From Burkholderia sp. BCC0506 (GTDB taxonomy: Bacteria; Pseudomonadota; Gammaproteobacteria; Burkholderiales; Burkholderiaceae), in the NCBI RefSeq assembly GCF_902833145.1, contig NZ_CADFEN010000008.1, positions 124,001 to 188,000 of the forward strand: a stretch of 64,000 nucleotides of DNA. The letters run 5' to 3'. Shown in pieces: positions 5,645 through 57,575 of this stretch. The notes beneath the pieces were generated by a model. It searched no databases. It was given only the letters and a program-made list of their open reading frames with translations, and was not told where the DNA came from. Made by a program: the position numbers and the translations under genes. Positions within the stretch are counted from its first letter, which is position 1, and the number at the start of each line of letters is the position of its first letter.

Positions 5645-7036
5645 TTACCGCTGCGTCAGCATCATGTACATCTGGACCACGACGTCCGGCGAGAACGTGA
5701 ACGGCACCCAGCCGTAGCCCGTGTGGCGGGCGACCAGCAGGCGATCGCCGTTGGACTGCTTCTGCACGGCCATCATCGGGTTCTTCGTCGTCACGAAACG
5801 CCAGCCGGCCGGAATGCCGGGCGGCGGCTCCGGCTGCATCGACGCGCGCGCGTGCGCGAGTTCCTCGATCAGCAGGCCCAGTTGCTCCGGATGCAGCGTG
5901 ACCGACTGACCGCCGATGGTCAGCGTGAGTTCGTTCTGGGAAGGGCGCGAGACGTGCAGCGTTGCCTTGTCGGCCGGCGCGGCGGCGGTTTCGGCTTCAA
6001 CCGTGGAATCGGCTTGCGCCGCCGGGACGATCGCGGTTTCGGCGTCGGCGGCCGTGGTCGACACCTCGGCTGCTTCGGCCGCCACCGGTGCGACTGCGTG
6101 CGCGGCCGGCGCATCGGCCGGTGCCGGCTCGACGACGTCGGCCGTCACGGCGGAGGCGGCAACCGCGCTCGTCGCGGCTTCCTTGACGACGGCCTCGACC
6201 AGCGCTTCCGCGTCGGCGATGGCCTTCGCGTGATGCTGCGCGGCCGCTTCCGCGTGGGCGATCGCCTCGGTGTGGCGTTGCGTGATGGCTTCGGCCTCGG
6301 CGGTTGCTTCGGCGTGGCGTTGCGCGGCGGCTTCGGCCCGGGCGATCGCTTCGGCGTGACGTTGCGTGATGGCTTCGGCCTCGGCGGTCGCTTCGGCGTG
6401 ACGCCGGGCGGCGGCCTGCGTGTCGGCGAGCGCCTGCGTGTGACGCTGGGCGAGCGCCTCGGCCTCGGCGATCGCGGCCATGTGGCGCTGCGCGGCGGCC
6501 TCGGCTTCGGCGGTCGCTTCCGCGTGGCGCTTCGCGGCGGCTTCGGCTTCGGCGGTCGCCGCGGCATGACGTTGCGCGGCCGCTTCGGCTTCGGTCGCGG
6601 CGGCGTGATGACGCTGCGCGGCGGCCTCGGCCTCGGCGATCGCCGCCGCGTGACGCTGCGACGCGGCTTCGGCATCCGCGTGACGTTGCGCGAGCGCTTC
6701 GGTCAGCGCGGTGGCTTCCGCATGGCGCTGGGAAGCGGCTTCGGCTTGCGCGGCGGCATCCGTATGACGTTGGGCGGCCGCTTCGGCGATGGCAGTGGCA
6801 TCGGCGTGGCGCCGCTGCGCGGCTTCGGCGTCGGCTGCAGCGGCCGTGTGGCGCTGCGCGGCGGCCTGCGCTTCGGCTTCCGCCGCCGCATGACGCTCGG
6901 CCGCGGCCCGTGCTTCCGCCGCCGCGGCGCGCGCGAAGGCTTCCGCGCTGCGAGCCGCCTGCTGGGCGGCGTGGTGATCGTGGAGGAGCTGATCGACGCC
7001 CGTGGCGAGCGAAGCGATCTGATCGTTCAGGTTCAT
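5645..7036 (-). CDS. Repetitive Ala-rich coiled-coil protein with a conserved C-terminal domain
   Basis: 463 residues. From about residue 40 to 280 it consists of about 17 copies of a 14-residue unit resembling AEATAEAEAAAQRH, each closing in (Q/R/K)RH. Fourteen residues are two heptads, so a long coiled coil is expected; one unit is 4 residues short. Residues 280-350 are a low-complexity Ala/Val/Pro linker. The last 110 residues form a separate domain (LTLTIGGQSVTLHPEQLGLL and HTGYGWVPFTFSPDVVVQMY). No signal peptide or membrane segment is seen. I do not recognise the family. It sits downstream of hpnA on the same strand and an AGAGAAG ribosome binding site precedes the start. A structural or scaffolding role is only inferred. 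Confidence 0.85.
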   Translation of the reverse strand: MNLNDQIASLATGVDQLLHDHHAAQQAARSAEAFARAAAAEARAAAERHAAAEAEAQAAAQRHTAAAADAEAAQRRHADATAIAEAAAQRHTDAAAQAEAASQRHAEATALTEALAQRHADAEAASQRHAAAIAEAEAAAQRHHAAATEAEAAAQRHAAATAEAEAAAKRHAEATAEAEAAAQRHMAAIAEAEALAQRHTQALADTQAAARRHAEATAEAEAITQRHAEAIARAEAAAQRHAEATAEAEAITQRHTEAIAHAEAAAQHHAKAIADAEALVEAVVKEAATSAVAASAVTADVVEPAPADAPAAHAVAPVAAEAAEVSTTAADAETAIVPAAQADSTVEAETAAAPADKATLHVSRPSQNELTLTIGGQSVTLHPEQLGLLIEELAHARASMQPEPPPGIPAGWRFVTTKNPMMAVQKQSNGDRLLVARHTGYGWVPFTFSPDVVVQMYMMLTQR

Positions 7037-11092: not shown

Positions 11093-11299
11093 TCAGTGAG
11101 GTGAGCCGATACGGGAGCGGGGCGGGGTGGCGGCGTCGTCGGATTCGGCGTCGTCGCGTTCGTCCTGCGCCGGCTCGTCGCGCTCCGCGAGGACCGCATC
11201 GGCTTCGGCCGCGGCCCGGGCGGCGCGCATCGCGGTGCAGCGCTGCGCGTGCCGGATGTCGGACAGGATTCTCAAAAGCCGCGTCGTCTTGCTTTTCAT
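11093..11299 (-). CDS. Small basic/acidic protein of unknown function
   Basis: 68 residues from the ATG at 11299, preceded by GGGAG with a 6-nt spacer. The N-terminal half is basic and helical (MKSKTTRLLRILSDIRHAQR), the C-terminal half acidic (EPAQDERDDAESDD). It has no recognised family. Its 3' end, including the codons for SRIGSP, is a copy of the 23-bp repeat found in the array at 36.7-37.0 kb. The good ribosome binding site supports a real gene, but with no homology evidence this is uncertain. Confidence 0.5.
   Translation of the reverse strand: MKSKTTRLLRILSDIRHAQRCTAMRAARAAAEADAVLAERDEPAQDERDDAESDDAATPPRSRIGSPH
11100..11119 (+). repeat. Single copy of the 23-bp repeat core
   Basis: The 20 bases here are identical to the start of the third unit of the array at 36749-37024. 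The core is GGTGAG-N6-CGGGAG. It overlaps the 3' end of the small minus-strand ORF at 11093-11299, in the same orientation relative to that gene as the array has to the H-NS-like gene at 37113. Confidence 0.8.
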
Positions 11300-32840: not shown

Positions 32841-33113
32841 ATGAAACACATGCTTGCGTCGGTCTGTCGGTGGCCTCGGGCGGCCGTGATGTTGGCTCTG
32901 GTTGCAGGGCTCGGCGGATGCGGTGGCGGTGCCCCGCTGTTCACTTCGGACGGGCGTCCGACCACTCAGGTGCAATGCACCGGCAGCGACTGGAGCAATT
33001 GCACGGACAATGCCCGGGCCATGTGCAACGGGGATTTCGACGTGATCCAGCAATCGACGGATGACGCCGTGCGAAATCTTCTCTTCGCATGCAAGAAGAA
33101 GAGCGGTTATTGA
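32841..33113 (+). CDS. Small lipoprotein
   Basis: 90 residues with a lipobox LVAGLGGC, cleaved before the cysteine at about residue 27. The mature part has further cysteines (VQCTGSDWSNCTDN, MCNGDF, ACKKK) that suggest disulfide bonding in the periplasm. No family recognised. GGGAAGAA precedes the ATG. It is the last gene before the H-NS gene. Confidence 0.75.
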   Translation: MKHMLASVCRWPRAAVMLALVAGLGGCGGGAPLFTSDGRPTTQVQCTGSDWSNCTDNARAMCNGDFDVIQQSTDDAVRNLLFACKKKSGY

Positions 33114-33217
33114 TCCCGAAATGACCGGCTGAGGAGACCACGATCGGGAGAAGCGCTTTTCCGCTTGCTTTGAGTCACTTGTTTTTTCACGAATAACACT
33201 CATGGAGTCCCATCCAT

Positions 33218-33523
33218 ATGGCGACCTACAGGCAACTGACCGCGCAGCTCGAACGGCTTCAGCAAAAGATCGACAAGGAACGTGAAAAGGCGATTGCCGA
33301 CGCGATTGCGACTATCCGCGCGAAAATCGACGAATACGACATTACGCCGGAAGAGCTCGGTTTTCGCCCGGCAGGATCGGCCTCCGCCGCTGCCGCCGCG
33401 AAGCCCAAGCGGACCTTGCCGCCCAAATACCTGAACCCGAAGACGGGCGAAACCTGGAGCGGCCGCGGACGGGCGCCGGCGTGGCTCGGCAAGAATCGCG
33501 GACGTTTCCTGATCAAGGACTGA
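33218..33523 (+). CDS. H-NS family nucleoid protein
   Basis: 101 residues, the short H-NS-like type of Burkholderia and Ralstonia. An N-terminal coiled-coil dimerisation region (residues 1-50) is followed by a linker with DITPEEL and an Ala-rich stretch, then the DNA-binding core KYLNPKTGETWSGRGRAPAW, the usual AT-hook-like motif. Expected role: silencing of AT-rich acquired DNA. It is immediately followed by one copy of the 23-bp repeat core and an intrinsic terminator. Confidence 0.95.
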   Translation: MATYRQLTAQLERLQQKIDKEREKAIADAIATIRAKIDEYDITPEELGFRPAGSASAAAAAKPKRTLPPKYLNPKTGETWSGRGRAPAWLGKNRGRFLIKD

Positions 33524-33541
33524 CTCCCGAAAATCCTCACC
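33524..33541 (-). repeat. 23-bp repeat core, directly after H-NS stop
   Basis: CTCCCG-AAAATC-CTCACC on the plus strand, which is the reverse complement of GGTGAG-N6-CGGGAG. It begins at the base after the H-NS stop codon and lies before the terminator, so it is inside the H-NS 3' untranslated region. Confidence 0.8.
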
Positions 33542-33557
33542 TTTCGTATGTCGACTG

Positions 33558-33599
33558 ACGGTGCGAACGGCCATGCGGCCTTCGCACCGTTTTGTTTTC
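33558..33599 (+). terminator. Intrinsic terminator of the H-NS gene
   Basis: Stem ACGGTGCGAA with TTCGCACCGT (33558-33567 and 33581-33590) with an inner GGCC pairing, followed by TTTTGTTTT on the plus strand. Strong Rho-independent terminator. Confidence 0.9.
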
Positions 33600-34102
33600 A
33601 TGCGATCGCCCTGCGATTTTCCCCGGCGAATTGAAGTGCAATGCCGCGCAATTAACGGATCCTGTTTTGCGAATTCGCCGCGATCCGGCCGCATATTGCG
33701 GGGAATTTCCGTAAACAGCGGCGTAATCGCGCCATGCATGCATATGGGCATTCGTGTTTTTCGCGGTGCATGCGTGACGCGGATTTTCATCACCGTTCGC
33801 GCATTGCCGCAGTGTGTCGTGCGATTCCCGAAGATACTCACCATGGCTCCTGTAAATCCTCACCTTTGAGAGCGCGGCTGCGGTCGAGCCGCGTTGTGTG
33901 CCTCGTGCGAGCGACGCTTCGATGCCGGGCCGCATGTGTTGCATGCCCATGGTGCGAGTATTGACGTCCGTCGAATAGTCGGCCGTTCGGCATATAGGCA
34001 GCCGCAGGCGCTTCACCTATGCTTGGAGTTCGCGTCGATCGGCGCCCGGCCCGCCCGGCCGCATGCCGATCGAGTCGTCTTTCGTCATCGCAGGGAGTCG
34101 AT
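33600..34102. other. AT-enriched intergenic region between H-NS and the acetyltransferase gene
   Basis: About 500 bp, visibly less GC-rich than its surroundings (many AATT, TTTT and ATGCAT tracts), so it is a likely H-NS target. It holds two further diverged copies of the 23-bp repeat core at 33825-33864. I found no convincing gene; a long minus-strand frame here runs through the H-NS terminator and is a shadow. Confidence 0.5.
33825..33864 (-). repeat. Two diverged copies of the 23-bp repeat core
   Basis: TTCCCG-AAGATA-CTCACC (33825-33842) and CTCCTG-TAAATC-CTCACC (33847-33864), spaced 22 bp. Same orientation as the copy at 33524, opposite to the array at 36.7 kb. They lie upstream of the acetyltransferase gene. 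Confidence 0.7.
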
Positions 34103-36460
34103 GTGACCGTTCGCCATCTCGATGCGTTGTTCCAGCCCAGGTCCGTTGCGATCGTCGGCGCTTCGTCGCGCGCAGGCAGTATCGGCGCGATGGTATGGTC
34201 GCGCGTGCTCGACGGCGCGTTCCAGGGGCCCGTGTGGCCGGTCAATCCGAAATATCGAGAGCTGGACGGTCATAAGGTCGTCTCCGATGTCGACCGGTTG
34301 CCCGCGCCGCCGTCGGTTGCCGTGATCTGCACGCCGCCCGCGACCTGGGCCGGCATCGTGCGCAAGCTCGGTGAGCTCGGCACGCGTGTCGCGGTGATCG
34401 TCGGCGAGGCGCGCACCGATGCCGATCGCGCCGCGGTCGATCGCACGCTGAAGGCGGCGAAGCCGTTCGTGCTCCGTATCGTCGGGCCCGGCAGCCTGGG
34501 CGTGCTGTCGCCGGCGCGGCACGCGCATTTCGGCGCGCCGGCGTATACGGCGCGATCGGGCGGCGTCGCGTGGGTGTCGCAATCGAATGCGTTGACGAAT
34601 GCGGTGCTCGGCTGGGCCGACGCACGCGGCCTCGGCTTTTCGCATGTCGTCGCGCTCGGCAGCGAATCCGACGTCGATGCGGGCGACGTACTCGACTACC
34701 TGGCGAGCGATCCCGGCACACGCGCGATTCTGCTCGAGCTCGATACCGTGCGCGCCGCGCGCAAGTTCATGTCGGCGGCGCGCGCGGCCGCACGCAACAA
34801 GCCGGTGCTCGCGCTGCGTACCGGCCGAGCCGATCCCGGCGACGCACTCTACACGGCGGCGTTCCAGCGCGCGGGCATGGTGCGCGTCGATGCGCTCGAC
34901 GATCTGCTCGACGAAATCGAGACGCTCGGCGTCGGCCGCGTCACCGCACGGGGGGCGGCGACGCTCGTGACGAGCGACGCGGGCGTGGCGAAACTCGCGG
35001 TCGATGCGGTGGCCGAGGTGCGCGACGTGCTGACCGACTGGTCGCCCGCGGCAACGTCGGCCGTCGCGGCCGCGCTGCCGCATCTCGCGGCGCCCGGCAA
35101 TCCGCTCACGCTGGGCGACGATGCGCGCCCCGAGCACTTTGCCGCGGCGATCAAGGCGCTCGCGCCGTTTCCGCAGACGGGCACGCTGTTCGTCGTTCAT
35201 TCCACTTCGCACAGTGCGCCGGCCGATGCGGTCGCACGCACGCTGATCGACTCGCGGCAGTACGCGCAGCGCGGCATCCTCGCGTGCTTCTTCGGCGCGG
35301 TCGACGCGGCGACGCGCGACGCGCTGCACGCGAACGGCATCCCGGTGCACACGACGCCGCAGCGGCTCGCACGCGCGTATGCGCGTCTCGTCGACTACAA
35401 CCTCGGGCGTCAACTGCTGATGCAGACGCCGGAGGGCACGCCGCCGCAGCCGGCCGAGTGCGTGGCGTCCGCCCAGGCCGACGCGCACCGCATGGTCGAA
35501 GCCGGTCGGCATGAACTGACCGACGAAGCCGCGCTGCGCTGGCTGTCCCATTTCGGTCTGCAGGGCGAGCAGCCCAACGAGCCTGCGGGCAAGCAGGTCG
35601 TCGATATCACGGTCGACATGTACGACGATTCGAACTTCGGTCCGGTGTTTCGCTATGCCGTGCCGCCGGCGGATGGCGTATCGGCGCCGTTCGTCGTCTA
35701 CGGCCTGCCGCCGCTGAACACCGTGCTCGCCCGCGCGGTGATGGAGCGCTCGCCGTATGCGCGCGGCACGCCCGTCGAGCCGACGCTCGATGCGCTGACG
35801 GCACTGTCGCAGGTCGTCTGCGACGTGCGCGAAGTCGTTGCGATGTCGGTCACGCTGCGCGTGCTGTCCGACCGCGCACGGGTGGTCGCGCCGCGCATCA
35901 CATTGGCCTCGGGGCGCAGCCGGCTCGCGATCATGCCGTATCCGCGGCATCTCGAGCAGACGCTCGAGTGGCGTGGCGAGACGGTGACGATCCGGCCGAT
36001 CCGTCCGGAGGACGAGGCCGCGCACAACGAACTGCTCGGCGCGATGACGCCGGAAGATCTGCGGATGCGTTTCTTCGGCGCGGTGCGCAGCTTCGATCAT
36101 TCGCAGGTGGCGCGCATGACGCAGATCGACTACGACCGTGAAATGGCCTTCATCGTGTCGTTTACCGATGTGTCGGGGCGCGACCACACGCTCGCGGTGG
36201 CGCGTGCGGTCGCCGATCCCGACAACGAGACGGCGGAGTTCGCGATCGCGGTACGGCCCGACCAAAAGGGCAAGGGGCTTGGCCGGCTGATGATGAACCG
36301 CATCATCGACTACACGCGCTCGCGCGGCACCGCGTGGATGGTCGGCGAGGCGCTGCGCGAGAATTCGGCGATGATCTCGCTCGCGAAATCGTGCGGTTTC
36401 GAGGTGTCGACGACGGAGGAGCCCGGCGTCGTGGGTTTCAGGATGAAGTTGCAGCCGTAG
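34103..36460 (+). CDS. Pat-like protein acetyltransferase (NDP-forming acyl-CoA synthetase-like plus GNAT)
   Basis: 785 residues from a GTG at 34103 preceded by CAGGGAG. N-terminal CoA-binding domain (SVAIVGASSRAGSIGAMVW), succinyl-CoA-ligase-like domains to about residue 450, an ATP-grasp-like region from about 470 to 610 and a C-terminal GNAT domain at about 625-785 (ITIRPIRPEDE-like start, IAVRPDQKGKGLGRLMMNRI acetyl-CoA loop). Such proteins (Pat/PatZ) acetylate lysines of metabolic enzymes such as acetyl-CoA synthetase. It is about 100 residues shorter than the usual 880-900, mainly in the ATP-grasp region, which is probably inactive, as in other Pat proteins. It is flanked on both sides by the repeats. 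Confidence 0.88.
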   Translation: MTVRHLDALFQPRSVAIVGASSRAGSIGAMVWSRVLDGAFQGPVWPVNPKYRELDGHKVVSDVDRLPAPPSVAVICTPPATWAGIVRKLGELGTRVAVIVGEARTDADRAAVDRTLKAAKPFVLRIVGPGSLGVLSPARHAHFGAPAYTARSGGVAWVSQSNALTNAVLGWADARGLGFSHVVALGSESDVDAGDVLDYLASDPGTRAILLELDTVRAARKFMSAARAAARNKPVLALRTGRADPGDALYTAAFQRAGMVRVDALDDLLDEIETLGVGRVTARGAATLVTSDAGVAKLAVDAVAEVRDVLTDWSPAATSAVAAALPHLAAPGNPLTLGDDARPEHFAAAIKALAPFPQTGTLFVVHSTSHSAPADAVARTLIDSRQYAQRGILACFFGAVDAATRDALHANGIPVHTTPQRLARAYARLVDYNLGRQLLMQTPEGTPPQPAECVASAQADAHRMVEAGRHELTDEAALRWLSHFGLQGEQPNEPAGKQVVDITVDMYDDSNFGPVFRYAVPPADGVSAPFVVYGLPPLNTVLARAVMERSPYARGTPVEPTLDALTALSQVVCDVREVVAMSVTLRVLSDRARVVAPRITLASGRSRLAIMPYPRHLEQTLEWRGETVTIRPIRPEDEAAHNELLGAMTPEDLRMRFFGAVRSFDHSQVARMTQIDYDREMAFIVSFTDVSGRDHTLAVARAVADPDNETAEFAIAVRPDQKGKGLGRLMMNRIIDYTRSRGTAWMVGEALRENSAMISLAKSCGFEVSTTEEPGVVGFRMKLQP

Positions 36461-36748
36461 GCGTCGGCCCATGGTTTGACGCCGGGGTGGCGCGTGGCGG
36501 CGATGCTGCAATGTCTCGCCATGGCGCCATTTCCATCAGGAATCCAAATAAGTTGAAAACAGCCTCCCCGATGCAGCGCTTGCCAGCGTGTCGGGCCCGC
36601 CGATCGTGGCGATATCGCGACGCACGCATGACGTCCGGAGAGTCACGCCGGCATGCGGCGATATTCATCCTGCGCGGTCGTTTCACGCGAGGTGCTTGCA
36701 CGCATTCGTGGCCGTATTCGGACCTCGTACATTCGAGTCCAGCACCAA
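36461..36748. other. Intergenic region before the repeat array
   Basis: About 290 bp after the acetyltransferase stop. No gene, terminator with T tract or clear promoter is seen. Its sequence shows no repeat units; the array begins abruptly at 36749. Confidence 0.5.
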
Positions 36749-37024
36749 GGTGAGACTTTTCGGGAGCAGAGGGTGAACTTTTCCGGGGCGGCATGGTGAG
36801 CCGATACGGGAGCGTTCGGTGAGCCTTCCCGGGAACAGCGGGTGAGTACCTGCGGGAGAGGCTGGTGAGCCTTTCCGGGACGCCTCGGTGAGCACTTGCG
36901 GGAGCGATCGGTGAGGAGGTTCGGGAGGCGTCAGTGAGCGTCTCCGGGAGCCTTGGGTGAGACTTTACGGGAGGTCACGGTGAGGGCTTGCGGGATGCTC
37001 GGGTGAGCTTTTTCGGGAGCATGT
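36749..37024 (+). repeat. Tandem array of twelve 23-bp units
   Basis: Twelve units start every 23 bp from 36749 (36749, 36772, ... 37002), with no insertion or deletion in register until the last, which ends 3 bases short. The consensus is GGTGAG-N6-CGGGAG-N5. GTGA and CGGG are invariant in all 12; the final G of CGGGAG is kept in 8. The N6 and N5 spacers differ in every unit, so this is not a recent slippage expansion. It lies between the converging acetyltransferase and H-NS-like genes. Other copies: 11100, 33524, 33825 and 33847. Confidence 0.95.
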
Positions 37025-37112
37025 GAACGCACGGCTCCCATCGGCGCCGCGCCGGCCAACGCCGGCGTGACGCACCGGTACGGACACGCACGAACCGTGC
37101 CCGTGACGACAC

Positions 37113-37655
37113 TTACGCAGCGAGTTTCGACGCCGCGTCGTTTACCTGCTCGCGCGAAATCGCGAGTTCCTCGAGGTGCGGATCGGCATAGACCGCACCG
37201 GTTTCGCGCTCGAGGCGCGCGATCGTCAGCGCACAGCGCGCGGTGTCTTTCGGCATCGCGATGAAGCGCTTGACCGATTCGCCGGACGTGAACGCGTCGA
37301 ACAGTGCGCCGCGCACGTCGTCCGGAAGCGTCTTGGTCCACTGGTACGGCTTGCCGTTGAACGTGATCGACGGCGGCAGCGTGCGTTCCTTCTTGGTCGC
37401 CGTGATGAGCCCGTAGGTGCGGGCCGCGTCGCCGATCTGCTCCGGCGAGAAGAGTTCGTCAGGCGTGATGTCGAACTGCTCGATGTAGTTCTCGATCGCC
37501 TGCATCGCGGCGGCCCGGTCGTCGCGCTTCTTCTGCGCGCGCGCGACGATATCGCGCAGCTCGTCCGCTTCCTCGGGCGTGATCGTGAAGCTTGCCTGCT
37601 TCTGCTGAAGTTCGGAGAAACGCTGGAATTCTTGATCGTTCAGAAGTTTGGCCAT
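37113..37655 (-). CDS. H-NS-related protein with an extra C-terminal domain
   Basis: 180 residues from the ATG at 37655. An earlier in-frame ATG at 37664 is possible. The N-terminal coiled-coil-rich half contains IEQFDITPDELF and then KKERTLPPSITFNGKPYQW, which align with IDEYDITPEELGF and PKRTLPPKYLNPKTGETW of the H-NS gene at 33.2 kb. The Gly-Arg-Gly-Arg DNA contact is missing, and a C-terminal domain of about 70 residues (VRGALFDAFTSGESVKRFIA onward) is added. It may modulate H-NS by heterodimerising or have its own target; not established. The 23-bp array lies 89 bp downstream of the stop. Confidence 0.8.
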   Translation of the reverse strand: MAKLLNDQEFQRFSELQQKQASFTITPEEADELRDIVARAQKKRDDRAAAMQAIENYIEQFDITPDELFSPEQIGDAARTYGLITATKKERTLPPSITFNGKPYQWTKTLPDDVRGALFDAFTSGESVKRFIAMPKDTARCALTIARLERETGAVYADPHLEELAISREQVNDAASKLAA

Positions 37656-37838
37656 GACATCCATCGGACACGACGGCCGCGACAACCGGCCGCCGTAGTT
37701 TTTGAGAGGGCCGCTATTCTAGCGTAGCGCCGCGGGTACCCGATGCGACGTCGCGCATCGGGTACCGCACGGGCGTCGCGCGCAACCGGAGCCGGCGCGC
37801 CGTGCCGTGCCCGGTCCGCCGTGCCCGGAAGCGGCACG

Positions 37839-38660
37839 TCAGCAGGTCTCGGTGCGGCACATCGACAGATGGGTGGCCGTGTCGCGCAGTGCGCCGACGA
37901 CCACGTCGACGGACGGTGCCATGTGTGCATCGATCCGGCGCATGTACGGGCACGTCAGCACCGCGATCGCGTGGCCGGCCGGCCCGAGGATCGGCACGGT
38001 CAGGTCGGTCACGCCGTACGCCTGGCGGCTGTCCTGGCGCAGGTAGCCGGACTGCCGGATCGACTGGCACGCATTCGCGAGCTCCTGCTCGTTCAGCGGC
38101 GCCTCGCCCTTGACCTTGCGGTGCTCGGCCAGCATGTGCGCGCGTTGCTCGGGGCCCTGGAACGCCAGCATCATGCGCCCCGATGCCGTATCGGCGAGCC
38201 CGACGCGCGAGCCGAGCCGGACCGACACGCCCCACGGGCCGGGCCCGTCCACCTGCGCGATCACGAGCAGGTTGCCGCGATCGTAGACGGACAGGTGGCA
38301 CGACTGTTCGGCGGCATCCGCGAAGCGCTGCATCGGCGGCAGCGCTTCGGCGATCAGCCGATTCATCGGCGGATGCCGGTGTGCCAGCGCGAACAGCTTG
38401 AGGCTGAGCGTGTAGCGGTCGCCGCCGGTCGAACGCATCACGTAGCGGCGCGCGACGAGGCGTTCGAGCATCCGGTAGATTTCGCTCGCGTTACGGCCGA
38501 GCTCCTTCGTGATTTCGGTGCGGGTGAGTCCTTCCTTCTGCTCGGACAGGAGTTCGAGAATGTCGAGGCCCTTGTCGAGCGCGGGTGCGCGATAGCGGTC
38601 GGTAGCGGCCATCGATTCCCGTGCGTCGCAGCCGGGAAGCGGGTCGTTGTTTGTCTGCAT
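37839..38660 (-). CDS. IclR-family transcriptional regulator
   Basis: 273 residues from the ATG at 38660; an in-frame ATG at 38612 with GGGA upstream (MAATDRYRAPALDKG) is a good alternative start. Winged helix at about 25-90 (LDILELLSEQKEGLTRTEIT, ASEIYRMLERLVARRYV) and an effector-binding domain at about 100-260 (LADTASGRMMLAF). It is divergent from the FAH hydrolase gene across 660 bp and probably regulates it. The inducer is unknown. Confidence 0.9.
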   Translation of the reverse strand: MQTNNDPLPGCDARESMAATDRYRAPALDKGLDILELLSEQKEGLTRTEITKELGRNASEIYRMLERLVARRYVMRSTGGDRYTLSLKLFALAHRHPPMNRLIAEALPPMQRFADAAEQSCHLSVYDRGNLLVIAQVDGPGPWGVSVRLGSRVGLADTASGRMMLAFQGPEQRAHMLAEHRKVKGEAPLNEQELANACQSIRQSGYLRQDSRQAYGVTDLTVPILGPAGHAIAVLTCPYMRRIDAHMAPSVDVVVGALRDTATHLSMCRTETC

Positions 38661-49826: not shown

Positions 49827-50000
49827 TGCCCGGCGGTTGGCGCGTGCAGCCCGGCGCCGTCGGTCCTTGAGCGATCCCTGCGTAGCCGACGTGCTGCGCG
49901 GGGATTTTTTGTTTGGCGTATGCGTGACGGCGGCAATTCGGTTTGCAAGATGCCGGCCGGAGTTCGTCACGAAGCGCGGACGGCGGCCGACCGCGCTGTA
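49827..50000. other. Short region between prpF and the hairpin repeats
   Basis: 174 bp with no gene. No clear terminator for the prp operon is visible here, except a weak T-rich run (about 49905-49915). Confidence 0.4.
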
Positions 50001-50139
50001 TGGGATCCGCGCAAGCGCCAAAGCGCCAACGCTGACCGACCGCGAAGCATGGGACCAGCGCAAGCGCTAAAGCGCTGACGCTGGTCGACCGCGAAGCATG
50101 GGACCAGCGTAAGCGCTAAAGCGCTAACGCTGGTCGACA
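50001..50139. repeat. Three tandem 49-bp hairpin-forming repeats
   Basis: Copies start at 50001, 50050 and 50099; the third is cut after about 41 bp. Each has the form ACCAGCG-N2-AGCGCTAAAGCGCT-N2-CGCTGGT (the first copy diverged), an inverted repeat able to form a hairpin of about 14 bp, and ends in GACCGCGAAGCATG. The third runs directly into the ribosome binding site of the CoA transferase gene. Confidence 0.9.
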
Positions 50140-51325: not shown

Positions 51326-51769
51326 TCACGCCGTTTCCTCCCGCGCATCCGGCATCTTGCCGTCGCCGACGCGGTTGATCGTGCCTTGCGCGATCGCGAC
51401 GAGCCGCTCGTGGTCGCCGTCGATGACGAACACATGACATTGGCAGGTCGCCTGGTGCCGGCCCGCGTAGACGAGCTTCGCGCGGGCGACGAGCGTGCCG
51501 TTCACGGCCGGGCGCAGGTAGTTGATCTTGTATTCGGCGGTGATCACGCGCGGGCCGAGCACGAGCGCGCCGGCGAACGTCAGCGCGTTGTCCGCGAGAT
51601 AGCTGATGACGCCGCCGTGCACGAAACCGTGCTGCTGCCGCAGTTCGTCGCGCACCGGCAGACACAGCGACACTTCGTTGTCGCCGATATGCATCAGCTC
51701 CGTGCCCAGCAGCATGCTGAACGGCTGCGCACGCAATGCGCCGCGCGCGTGGTCCGTGATGTCGGTCAT
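51326..51769 (-). CDS. PaaI-like thioesterase (hot-dog fold)
   Basis: 147 residues, hot-dog fold, with the family motif HGGVISYLADNALTFAGALV (the catalytic Asp/Asn helix). Probably hydrolyses an acyl-CoA. The annotation PaaI-like is by fold only; the substrate is unknown. It faces the CoA transferase convergently and is divergent from the chemoreceptor. Confidence 0.88.
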   Translation of the reverse strand: MTDITDHARGALRAQPFSMLLGTELMHIGDNEVSLCLPVRDELRQQHGFVHGGVISYLADNALTFAGALVLGPRVITAEYKINYLRPAVNGTLVARAKLVYAGRHQATCQCHVFVIDGDHERLVAIAQGTINRVGDGKMPDAREETA

Positions 51770-57252: not shown

Positions 57253-57408
57253 ATGAGCTTCATCTTCGCCCTGCTGCAAAAAATCGACGACCTGTTCGTG
57301 TCCCCGCACCTGCCGCTCGACGCCGAATACTCGTACGCCGCGCGTCGCGCCGAAGCCGAGCGCGTACGCCGTGCGCACCTCGTGCCGATCGTCCTGTACC
57401 GTCGCTGA
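57253..57408 (+). CDS. DUF3563-type small protein
   Basis: 51 residues: MSFIFALLQKIDDLFVSPHL followed by a charged Ala/Arg/Glu segment. The N-terminus resembles DUF3563, a family of short Burkholderia proteins whose later part normally contains LxxLERRMRxLE; here that is replaced by AEAERVRRAHLVPIVLYRR, so the match is partial. CAGGAG precedes the ATG. The stop codon falls inside the first unit of an 8-bp repeat. Confidence 0.75.
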   Translation: MSFIFALLQKIDDLFVSPHLPLDAEYSYAARRAEAERVRRAHLVPIVLYRR

Positions 57409-57466
57409 TTCGCTGATTCGCTGATTCGCTGATTCGCTGATTCGCTGATTCGCTGATTCGCTGATT
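57403..57466 (+). repeat. Eight tandem copies of CGCTGATT
   Basis: Perfect 8-bp simple repeat, 8 units. The first unit includes the TGA stop of the DUF3563 gene, so changes in copy number would alter only the 3' untranslated region. It is prone to slippage. Confidence 0.95.
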
Positions 57467-57575
57467 CGGCGCGGCGTCCGCCGCACCTGCCCGCCCGTTT
57501 TCCACCGCCGCATCGCGCGCCGGTGCGACTGTCCCGCTACACTGGGAGTCCGATTCCGTTCACGGCGACCGGGCC

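Follow-up and report, generated by a model that had tools for sequence, protein, structure and literature searches.

A conserved array of twelve chromosome 2-type iterons remote from the replication origin in Burkholderia

The window analysed here, a stretch of 64,000 nucleotides from the genome of Burkholderia sp. BCC0506 (C8:124001-188000 of genome G000; 7.29 Mb, 45 contigs), contains at positions 36749-37024 of the forward strand an array of 12 head-to-tail 23-bp units, which were identified as iterons of the Burkholderia chromosome 2 (c2) replication origin (ori2). The array lay between two converging genes, as the initial annotation of this DNA had stated: a forward-strand gene (34019-36460) encoding CoA-binding/succinyl-CoA-ligase-like plus GNAT domains, which stopped 288 bp before the array, and a reverse-strand gene (37113-37685) encoding a protein of 190 aa without a Pfam match at E 0.001, which stopped 88 bp after it. 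The existence, coordinates, 23-bp register and invariant GTGA and CGGG cores of the array were likewise confirmed: the 276 bp comprised 12 contiguous units without gaps, all intervals were 23 bp, both cores were present in 12 of 12 units, and the complete motifs GGTGAG and CGGGAG were present in 10 and 8 units, respectively. The remaining 11 bases of the unit, described as variable, did vary for the most part, but position 11 was T in 11 of the 12 units and positions 9-10 were rich in T; the unit is therefore better written GGTGAG-N2-TTT-N-CGGGAG-N5. Coding sequence was rejected as the identity of the array, given its 23-bp period and its location between converging genes.

The densest cluster of the unit outside the array was found on the same contig, at C8:14556-15864 (19 units at up to 3 mismatches, 18 at up to 2). 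This cluster spanned 1.3 kb and was located just upstream of a Rep3-family initiator gene (C8:15983-17350, carrying Rep3_N and Rep3_C domains; its product is referred to as c2 Rep), followed by parB-like and parA-like genes. The sole sequence match of c2 Rep in the Protein Data Bank (PDB) up to E 0.1 was weak (E 0.0073): 2nra, “PI protein”, which we take to be the R6K initiator. The unit cluster, the Rep3 gene, the par-like genes and the 2nra match together mark the site as a plasmid-type origin with the unit as its iteron. Matches to PF01051 (Rep3) were present in G000 at C8:16085 and C1:53094 only, and a PF01051 gene adjoined the ori2 cluster in all eight genomes inspected for it (G004, G010-G014, G024 and G028). 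Exact core matches were present both at ori2 and in the array of G000.

The initial annotation knew of no named element with this consensus, a statement which has to be corrected: the published c2 iteron consensus of B. cenocepacia J2315, ctCCCGAAAAacCTCACCTtt, is the reverse complement of the array unit (Du et al. 2016, PMC4948915). The same paper mentions a second c2 iteron cluster 140 kb anticlockwise of the origin, and the array was taken to be this cluster because its distance from the origin cluster is about 145 kb. On the remote cluster, the portions of PMC4948915 available to us say nothing about structure, conservation, pattern of strength or function; its existence is already noted in print in one line, and what is new here is the architecture and conservation of the array. 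Judged by its sequence, the array is a remote cluster of Burkholderia chromosome 2 iterons.

The array and the c2 Rep gene with its origin were located on one replicon: contig C8 in G000, and chromosome 2 (NZ_CP045995.1) in Burkholderia sp. MS389, in which chromosome 2 carried 19 exact units, the third replicon 2 and the first replicon none. In other genomes, the exact matches situated off the ori2 contig were 1 of 20 (G004), 4 of 22 (G010), 0 of 19 (G011), 2 of 20 (G012), 5 of 23 (G013), 2 of 15 (G014) and 1 of 14 (G024). Ten genomes with the array were looked at for distance and orientation. The distance between the nearest listed units of array and origin was about 145 kb in G000, 148 kb in MS389, 136 kb in G004, 186 kb in G010, 148 kb in G011, 172 kb in G013 and 138 kb in G028 (G012, G014 and G024 were left out, array and origin being near opposite ends of the record), and array and origin units had the same direction in all ten. 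Initiator-type sites, predicted to be bound by the initiator, were thus present outside the origin, on the same replicon and early in the replication path (136-186 kb in seven genomes), as in off-origin titration of an initiator.

Loci of relatives were collected using the 190-aa right flanking protein as an anchor, and the best 80 of 127 were compared, the array being scored as present when at least 4 tandem units were found with up to 3 mismatches each. The initial annotation had put forward absence from this site in close relatives as counter-evidence to its view; the array was present at the same site in relatives, in 27 of the 80 loci, all labelled Burkholderia (L042-L058 and L060-L069). 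In L059 (B. dolosa) the array was decayed, but both of its end units retained high scores (34.3 and 26.2) on the origin-derived matrix described below; L070 had two exact units at the array site, spaced by 24 bp, and L074 two exact units spaced by 33 bp plus one additional unit at 2 mismatches. No array by the four-unit rule was found in the remaining 50 loci: Paraburkholderia, two Caballeronia, two Trinickia and four labelled Burkholderia sp. (L083, L091, L108 and L118). The nine arrays in which all intervals were 23 bp aligned without gaps over 276 columns, with a mean column identity of 90%.

A genus-wide scan for unit pairs in 23-bp register (position 11 being T) gave 9 matches in G000 and at least one in 53 of 65 genus genomes (G000 included), and the reversed pattern gave none in any of the 65, so that the array is not a chance occurrence. 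When nine of the 12 genomes lacking such a pair were re-searched, iterons were found in all nine, several with a small cluster well away from the densest one (G019, 261459/265026; G023, 250644/254727; also G016, G017, G030 and G055); the flanking-gene context of the small cluster matched the array site in L070 and L074. On chromosome 2 of P. xenovorans, the same iteron was present near the Rep3 gene as well as at roughly 14, 24, 35 and 59 kb; among the matches listed no pair of units was spaced by 23 bp, and five exact matches were on other replicons. In view of the P. xenovorans units and the small distant clusters, off-origin iterons seem to predate the 12-unit array.

Divergence was estimated from 18 arrays of exactly 12 units, the window included, retained from 34 sources put through the chain script (the rest were dropped for unit number). 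Between corresponding units, divergence was 0.069 in the cores and 0.215 in the middle six bases; it was 0.137 at four-fold sites of the flanking gene, which in G+C-rich genes are not neutral, and 0.38 in the tails, a better yardstick (nine all-23-bp arrays, 36 pairs). Core divergence reached or exceeded that of the middle in 0 of 153 array pairs and that of four-fold sites in 13, and middle divergence reached or exceeded that of four-fold sites in 135. The equal divergence of cores and spacers named by the initial annotation as counter-evidence was therefore not seen, and its proposal of an old array under selection for the two cores, rather than the product of recent slippage, was supported by the presence of the array in relatives and by the slower divergence of the cores. 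Units kept their identity by index, which argues against slippage or homogenisation: in the nine all-23-bp arrays, the best match was unique and had the same index in 589 of 864 unit comparisons, and among the twelve-unit arrays the middle of unit 3 was CCGATA in 14 of 18 and that of unit 4 CCTTCC in 16 of 18. Exact spacing, also proposed as a selected property, was kept in most intervals but not in all: in chains of at least 6 units, 301 of 331 intervals were 23 bp, 20 were 24 bp and 10 were 22 bp. The array is real, old and selected.

Array units were scored on a matrix based on the ori2 surroundings of two other genomes, G011 and G028 (37 units in all); this matrix gave no match at 20 or above in 979,339 bases of reversed loci. 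Mean scores for units 1 to 6 over the 18 arrays were 31.5, 13.5, 18.0, 16.8, 12.9 and 18.7, and for units 7 to 12 they were 14.3, 15.1, 14.5, 23.9, 13.5 and 29.4; 17 of the 18 ori2 units of G000 scored 20.2-33.1 and the remaining one 11.5. The array is built of strong origin-type iterons at the ends and mostly weak iterons in the interior, “strong” and “weak” being terms for the matrix score, which is not an affinity. In the window, unit 1 (36749-36766, forward strand) scored 30.2 and unit 12 (37002-37019, forward strand) 26.3; these two units ranked highest in 17 of 18 arrays and were both within the top three in all 18. The difference between end and interior units was due chiefly to the bases immediately preceding the unit and to its middle, rather than to the cores.

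Four further units were present in the window. A lone unit at 11100-11117 (forward strand) was located between converging genes, about 26 kb closer to the origin than the array; its 18-mer was also present in MS389, about 29 kb from the array. A single strong unit at 33524-33541 (reverse strand, score 33.6) abutted the stop codon of a small H-NS-type gene, and units scoring at least 20 were found on this side of the locus in 30 of 30 loci (L042-L070 and L074). The other two formed a reverse-strand pair at 33825-33864, 22 bp apart (33825-33842, score 19.6; 33847-33864, score 29.2). The lone unit at 11100, unit 3 of the array (36795-36812, forward strand) and the origin unit at C8:15735 shared an identical 18-mer with the middle CCGATA, which was thus present at three distant places in G000 and also three times in MS389 (1876154, 1905390 and 2024172); it is perhaps a second iteron subtype.

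In the whole G000 genome, 79 unit matches with up to 1 mismatch were found vs. 33 for the reversed control; 25 matches were exact, 18 of them on contig C8. Nine non-coding off-origin places were classified, leaving out C8:29128, C4:140610, C7:163919, C20:40823 and the units of contig C1: five were between converging, three between tandem and one between diverging genes (converging gaps made up 2357 of the 9854 gap bases in the window, with the same crude gene caller). On both arms, off-origin iterons were mostly oriented away from the origin (7 of the 9 places): G000:C8:3862, 6386/6416, 8066 and 12913/12937, the pair G000:C2:1773/1795 (orientation judged from its MS389 counterpart), and window positions 11100 and 36749; the exceptions were the two places beside the H-NS gene. 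The exact units C1:695070, C1:808963 and C7:163919, within long open frames, and C8:29128, within a called gene, are probably chance matches.

Units off chromosome 2 were inspected for a site like crtS. The unit at C4:140610 overlapped the start of an open frame, and an identical 18-mer was found in MS389 and G028 on the chromosome 2 contig. The exact unit at G000:C20:40823-40840 (middle AGGATT) was present letter for letter in G010, G014, G015, G019 and G028; it overlapped open frames, including one that would start at the unit with MNDLPNPLTP, and could therefore be part of a conserved coding sequence. Paired c2-type iterons, each with 1 mismatch, were observed at G000:C1:51329-51346 and 51363-51380 (L176:1830 and 1864) and at G001:C3:230347 and 230380, in both genomes some 1.6-1.7 kb ahead of the third-replicon Rep3 match and upstream of the main run of that replicon's own iterons. 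Single exact c2-type units were found at a similar third-replicon place in G012 and G024, and none among the exact matches listed for the other six of eight genomes. The two Rep proteins of G000 share 34% identity; a link between the two replicons through these units is possible.

The array, a conserved 276-bp site of Burkholderia chromosome 2, very probably has to do with the initiator. The reading which we favour, and hold to be rather probable, is that the array is a dense off-origin cluster of predicted c2 Rep sites acting as a sink. Structures of Rep3 proteins show two winged-helix domains, and cores about one helical turn apart fit one Rep molecule; to our knowledge, Rep3 proteins are not known as ATPases. 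Each array unit would be one Rep site, its two cores, 12 bp apart, plausibly meeting the two winged-helix domains on one face of the DNA. Soon after ori2 firing, the fork would copy the array about 145 kb away and double its sites; free Rep would then drop, and ori2 would stay silent until Rep is remade, the array serving as a Rep sink and possibly also as a bridging partner. Rep would probably be seeded by the strong end iterons, and the interior units, which are evenly pitched and for the most part weak, may fill cooperatively at high Rep, with an uptake climbing steeply with the Rep level. That the array works in this way as a concentration gauge, with strong ends seeding Rep, ten interior units filling cooperatively and array duplication resetting ori2, is a tentative proposal and rather doubtful as a whole. 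If true, this would make the anchored remote array, with its strong-weak-strong layout, a distinct design of once-per-cycle control for a secondary chromosome, kept across much of Burkholderia. The array offers a test bed for how multi-chromosome bacteria limit the copying of an extra chromosome, and, as a removable site of 276 bp, would allow one to ask directly whether this problem is generally solved by remote initiator sinks.

The sink is favoured because of the analogy with the off-origin RctB sites of Vibrio cholerae, which bind RctB and lower the copy number of ori2 plasmids in E. coli (Baek and Chattoraj 2014, PMC3937223, as far as its available text goes). Several points weigh against it. 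According to the same available text, extra RctB relieved the inhibition by off-origin sites except for chrII-10, and deletion of chrII-10 gave no growth phenotype. The interior units of the array scored below origin units (means of 12.9-18.7 for units 2-9 and 11, and 23.9 for unit 10) and might bind poorly. The Paraburkholderia loci among the best 80 of 127 were without the array, which is therefore not needed for chromosome 2 replication in the family. The requirement of 12 recognisable units for the divergence estimates favours conserved cores somewhat. The c2 iterons of PMC4948915 were, in the portions available, inferred from sequence, and searches of the open-licence literature, as far as its available texts go, gave no description or function of the array beyond the one-line mention.

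Bridging is an unlikely but serious alternative to the sink: the array would bind Rep and chiefly bridge to ori2 (handcuffing or chromosome folding), so that distance and direction outweigh the number of sites. Handcuffing is described for iteron-type chromids in the available part of PMC6090056, and the fixed pitch, the strong end units, the broadly kept distance and the origin-like direction in 10 of 10 genomes are consistent with it. The present results do not separate bridging from titration; the distance ranges over 136-186 kb, and therefore no exact loop length is kept.

A slowing or polarising of the replication fork of that arm by array-bound Rep appears improbable; we know of no case of an iteron array acting as a fork barrier. 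From the available text of PMC4948915, origin-proximal sequence of the left c2 arm is slightly less abundant than that of the right arm and the c2 cluster lies 140 kb anticlockwise, both in line with such an effect, but its authors give other reasons for the asymmetry. The orientation away from the origin of seven of the nine classified non-coding places in G000 would also fit.

It is very improbable that the array is a relic or alternative origin of chromosome 2. Its regular 23-bp head-to-tail pitch would suit an origin, being closer to that of plasmid origins than is the irregular spacing at ori2. When the spacing of the origin iterons was put to a phase test at five preset periods, no periodicity was significant (p about 0.16-0.71). 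Neither of the two PF01051 matches of G000 was beside the array, the lowest 60-bp G+C was 45% vs. 33% at ori2, and CTGTGCA 7-mers numbered 0 vs. 4 at ori2; the lack of a DnaA box (up to 1 mismatch) in 36000-37800 is a weak point, as ori2 has only 1. With no Rep gene, DnaA boxes or AT-rich unwinding region found beside the array, an origin was rejected.

Equally slight is the probability that the array regulates or terminates the neighbouring genes or forms a structured RNA, as its position in 3' intergenic space might suggest. The forward strand of the array in the window folded better than 200 of 200 dinucleotide shuffles (z -3.4; reverse strand weaker, z -1.7), but when only spacers were permuted among units the 18 arrays averaged z -0.25 (forward) and -0.06 (reverse), with -2.2 for the forward strand of the array in the window. 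No Rfam match was found in 33000-38000 and no terminator- or promoter-like site in 36300-37300, and the location of five of the nine classified non-coding off-origin places between converging genes also speaks against this reading; a structured RNA or terminator was rejected on the near-zero permutation values over the 18 arrays and the lack of an Rfam match and of a terminator-like site in these intervals. Least credible of all is a neutral minisatellite grown by slippage from one iteron, rejected for the 18 twelve-unit arrays: the unit number, which varies between species (2 to 23 in Burkholderia loci with more than one unit), does mean that units have been gained and lost, but cores diverged more slowly than middles in 153 of 153 pairs and, on average, than four-fold sites and tails, and units kept their identity by index without homogenisation.

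Other repeats were also observed in the window: a perfect tandem octamer at 57402-57468 (TCGCTGAT, 8.4 copies, 100% match), which could be a slippage-prone switch; 49-bp direct repeats with a palindrome-like stretch at 49988-50138 (3.1 copies, 88% matches); and an extended run of 42-bp repeats at 6204-6928 (14 codons each if in frame), which probably encodes a repetitive protein.

Among known systems, plasmid loci such as P1 incA and F incC are sets of head-to-tail iterons that contain no origin; they bind Rep and reduce the copy number. The array resembles them in its head-to-tail iterons without an origin; the inc loci adjoin the origin on a plasmid, whereas the array is 136-186 kb away on a megabase chromosome. 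E. coli datA is an off-origin initiator-binding cluster restraining initiation, as is predicted for the array; unlike the predicted Rep sites of the array, datA binds DnaA and promotes its ATP hydrolysis (PMC3937223, available text). The crtS site is on chromosome 1 and is not made of iterons in the available texts of PMC3937223 and PMC11711613, whereas the array is on chromosome 2 and made of iterons; a crtS-type site was rejected. With the c2 iterons of B. cenocepacia J2315 the array shares the consensus, on the other strand, and the second cluster 140 kb away agrees with its position (PMC4948915, available portions). The RctB sites of V. cholerae chromosome II (PMC3937223, available text) are like the array in being origin-type iterons off the origin, on a plasmid-like secondary chromosome and duplicated early; the array, in which no second type of site was identified, differs from them in concentrating 12 contiguous units in 276 bp, about 145 kb away.
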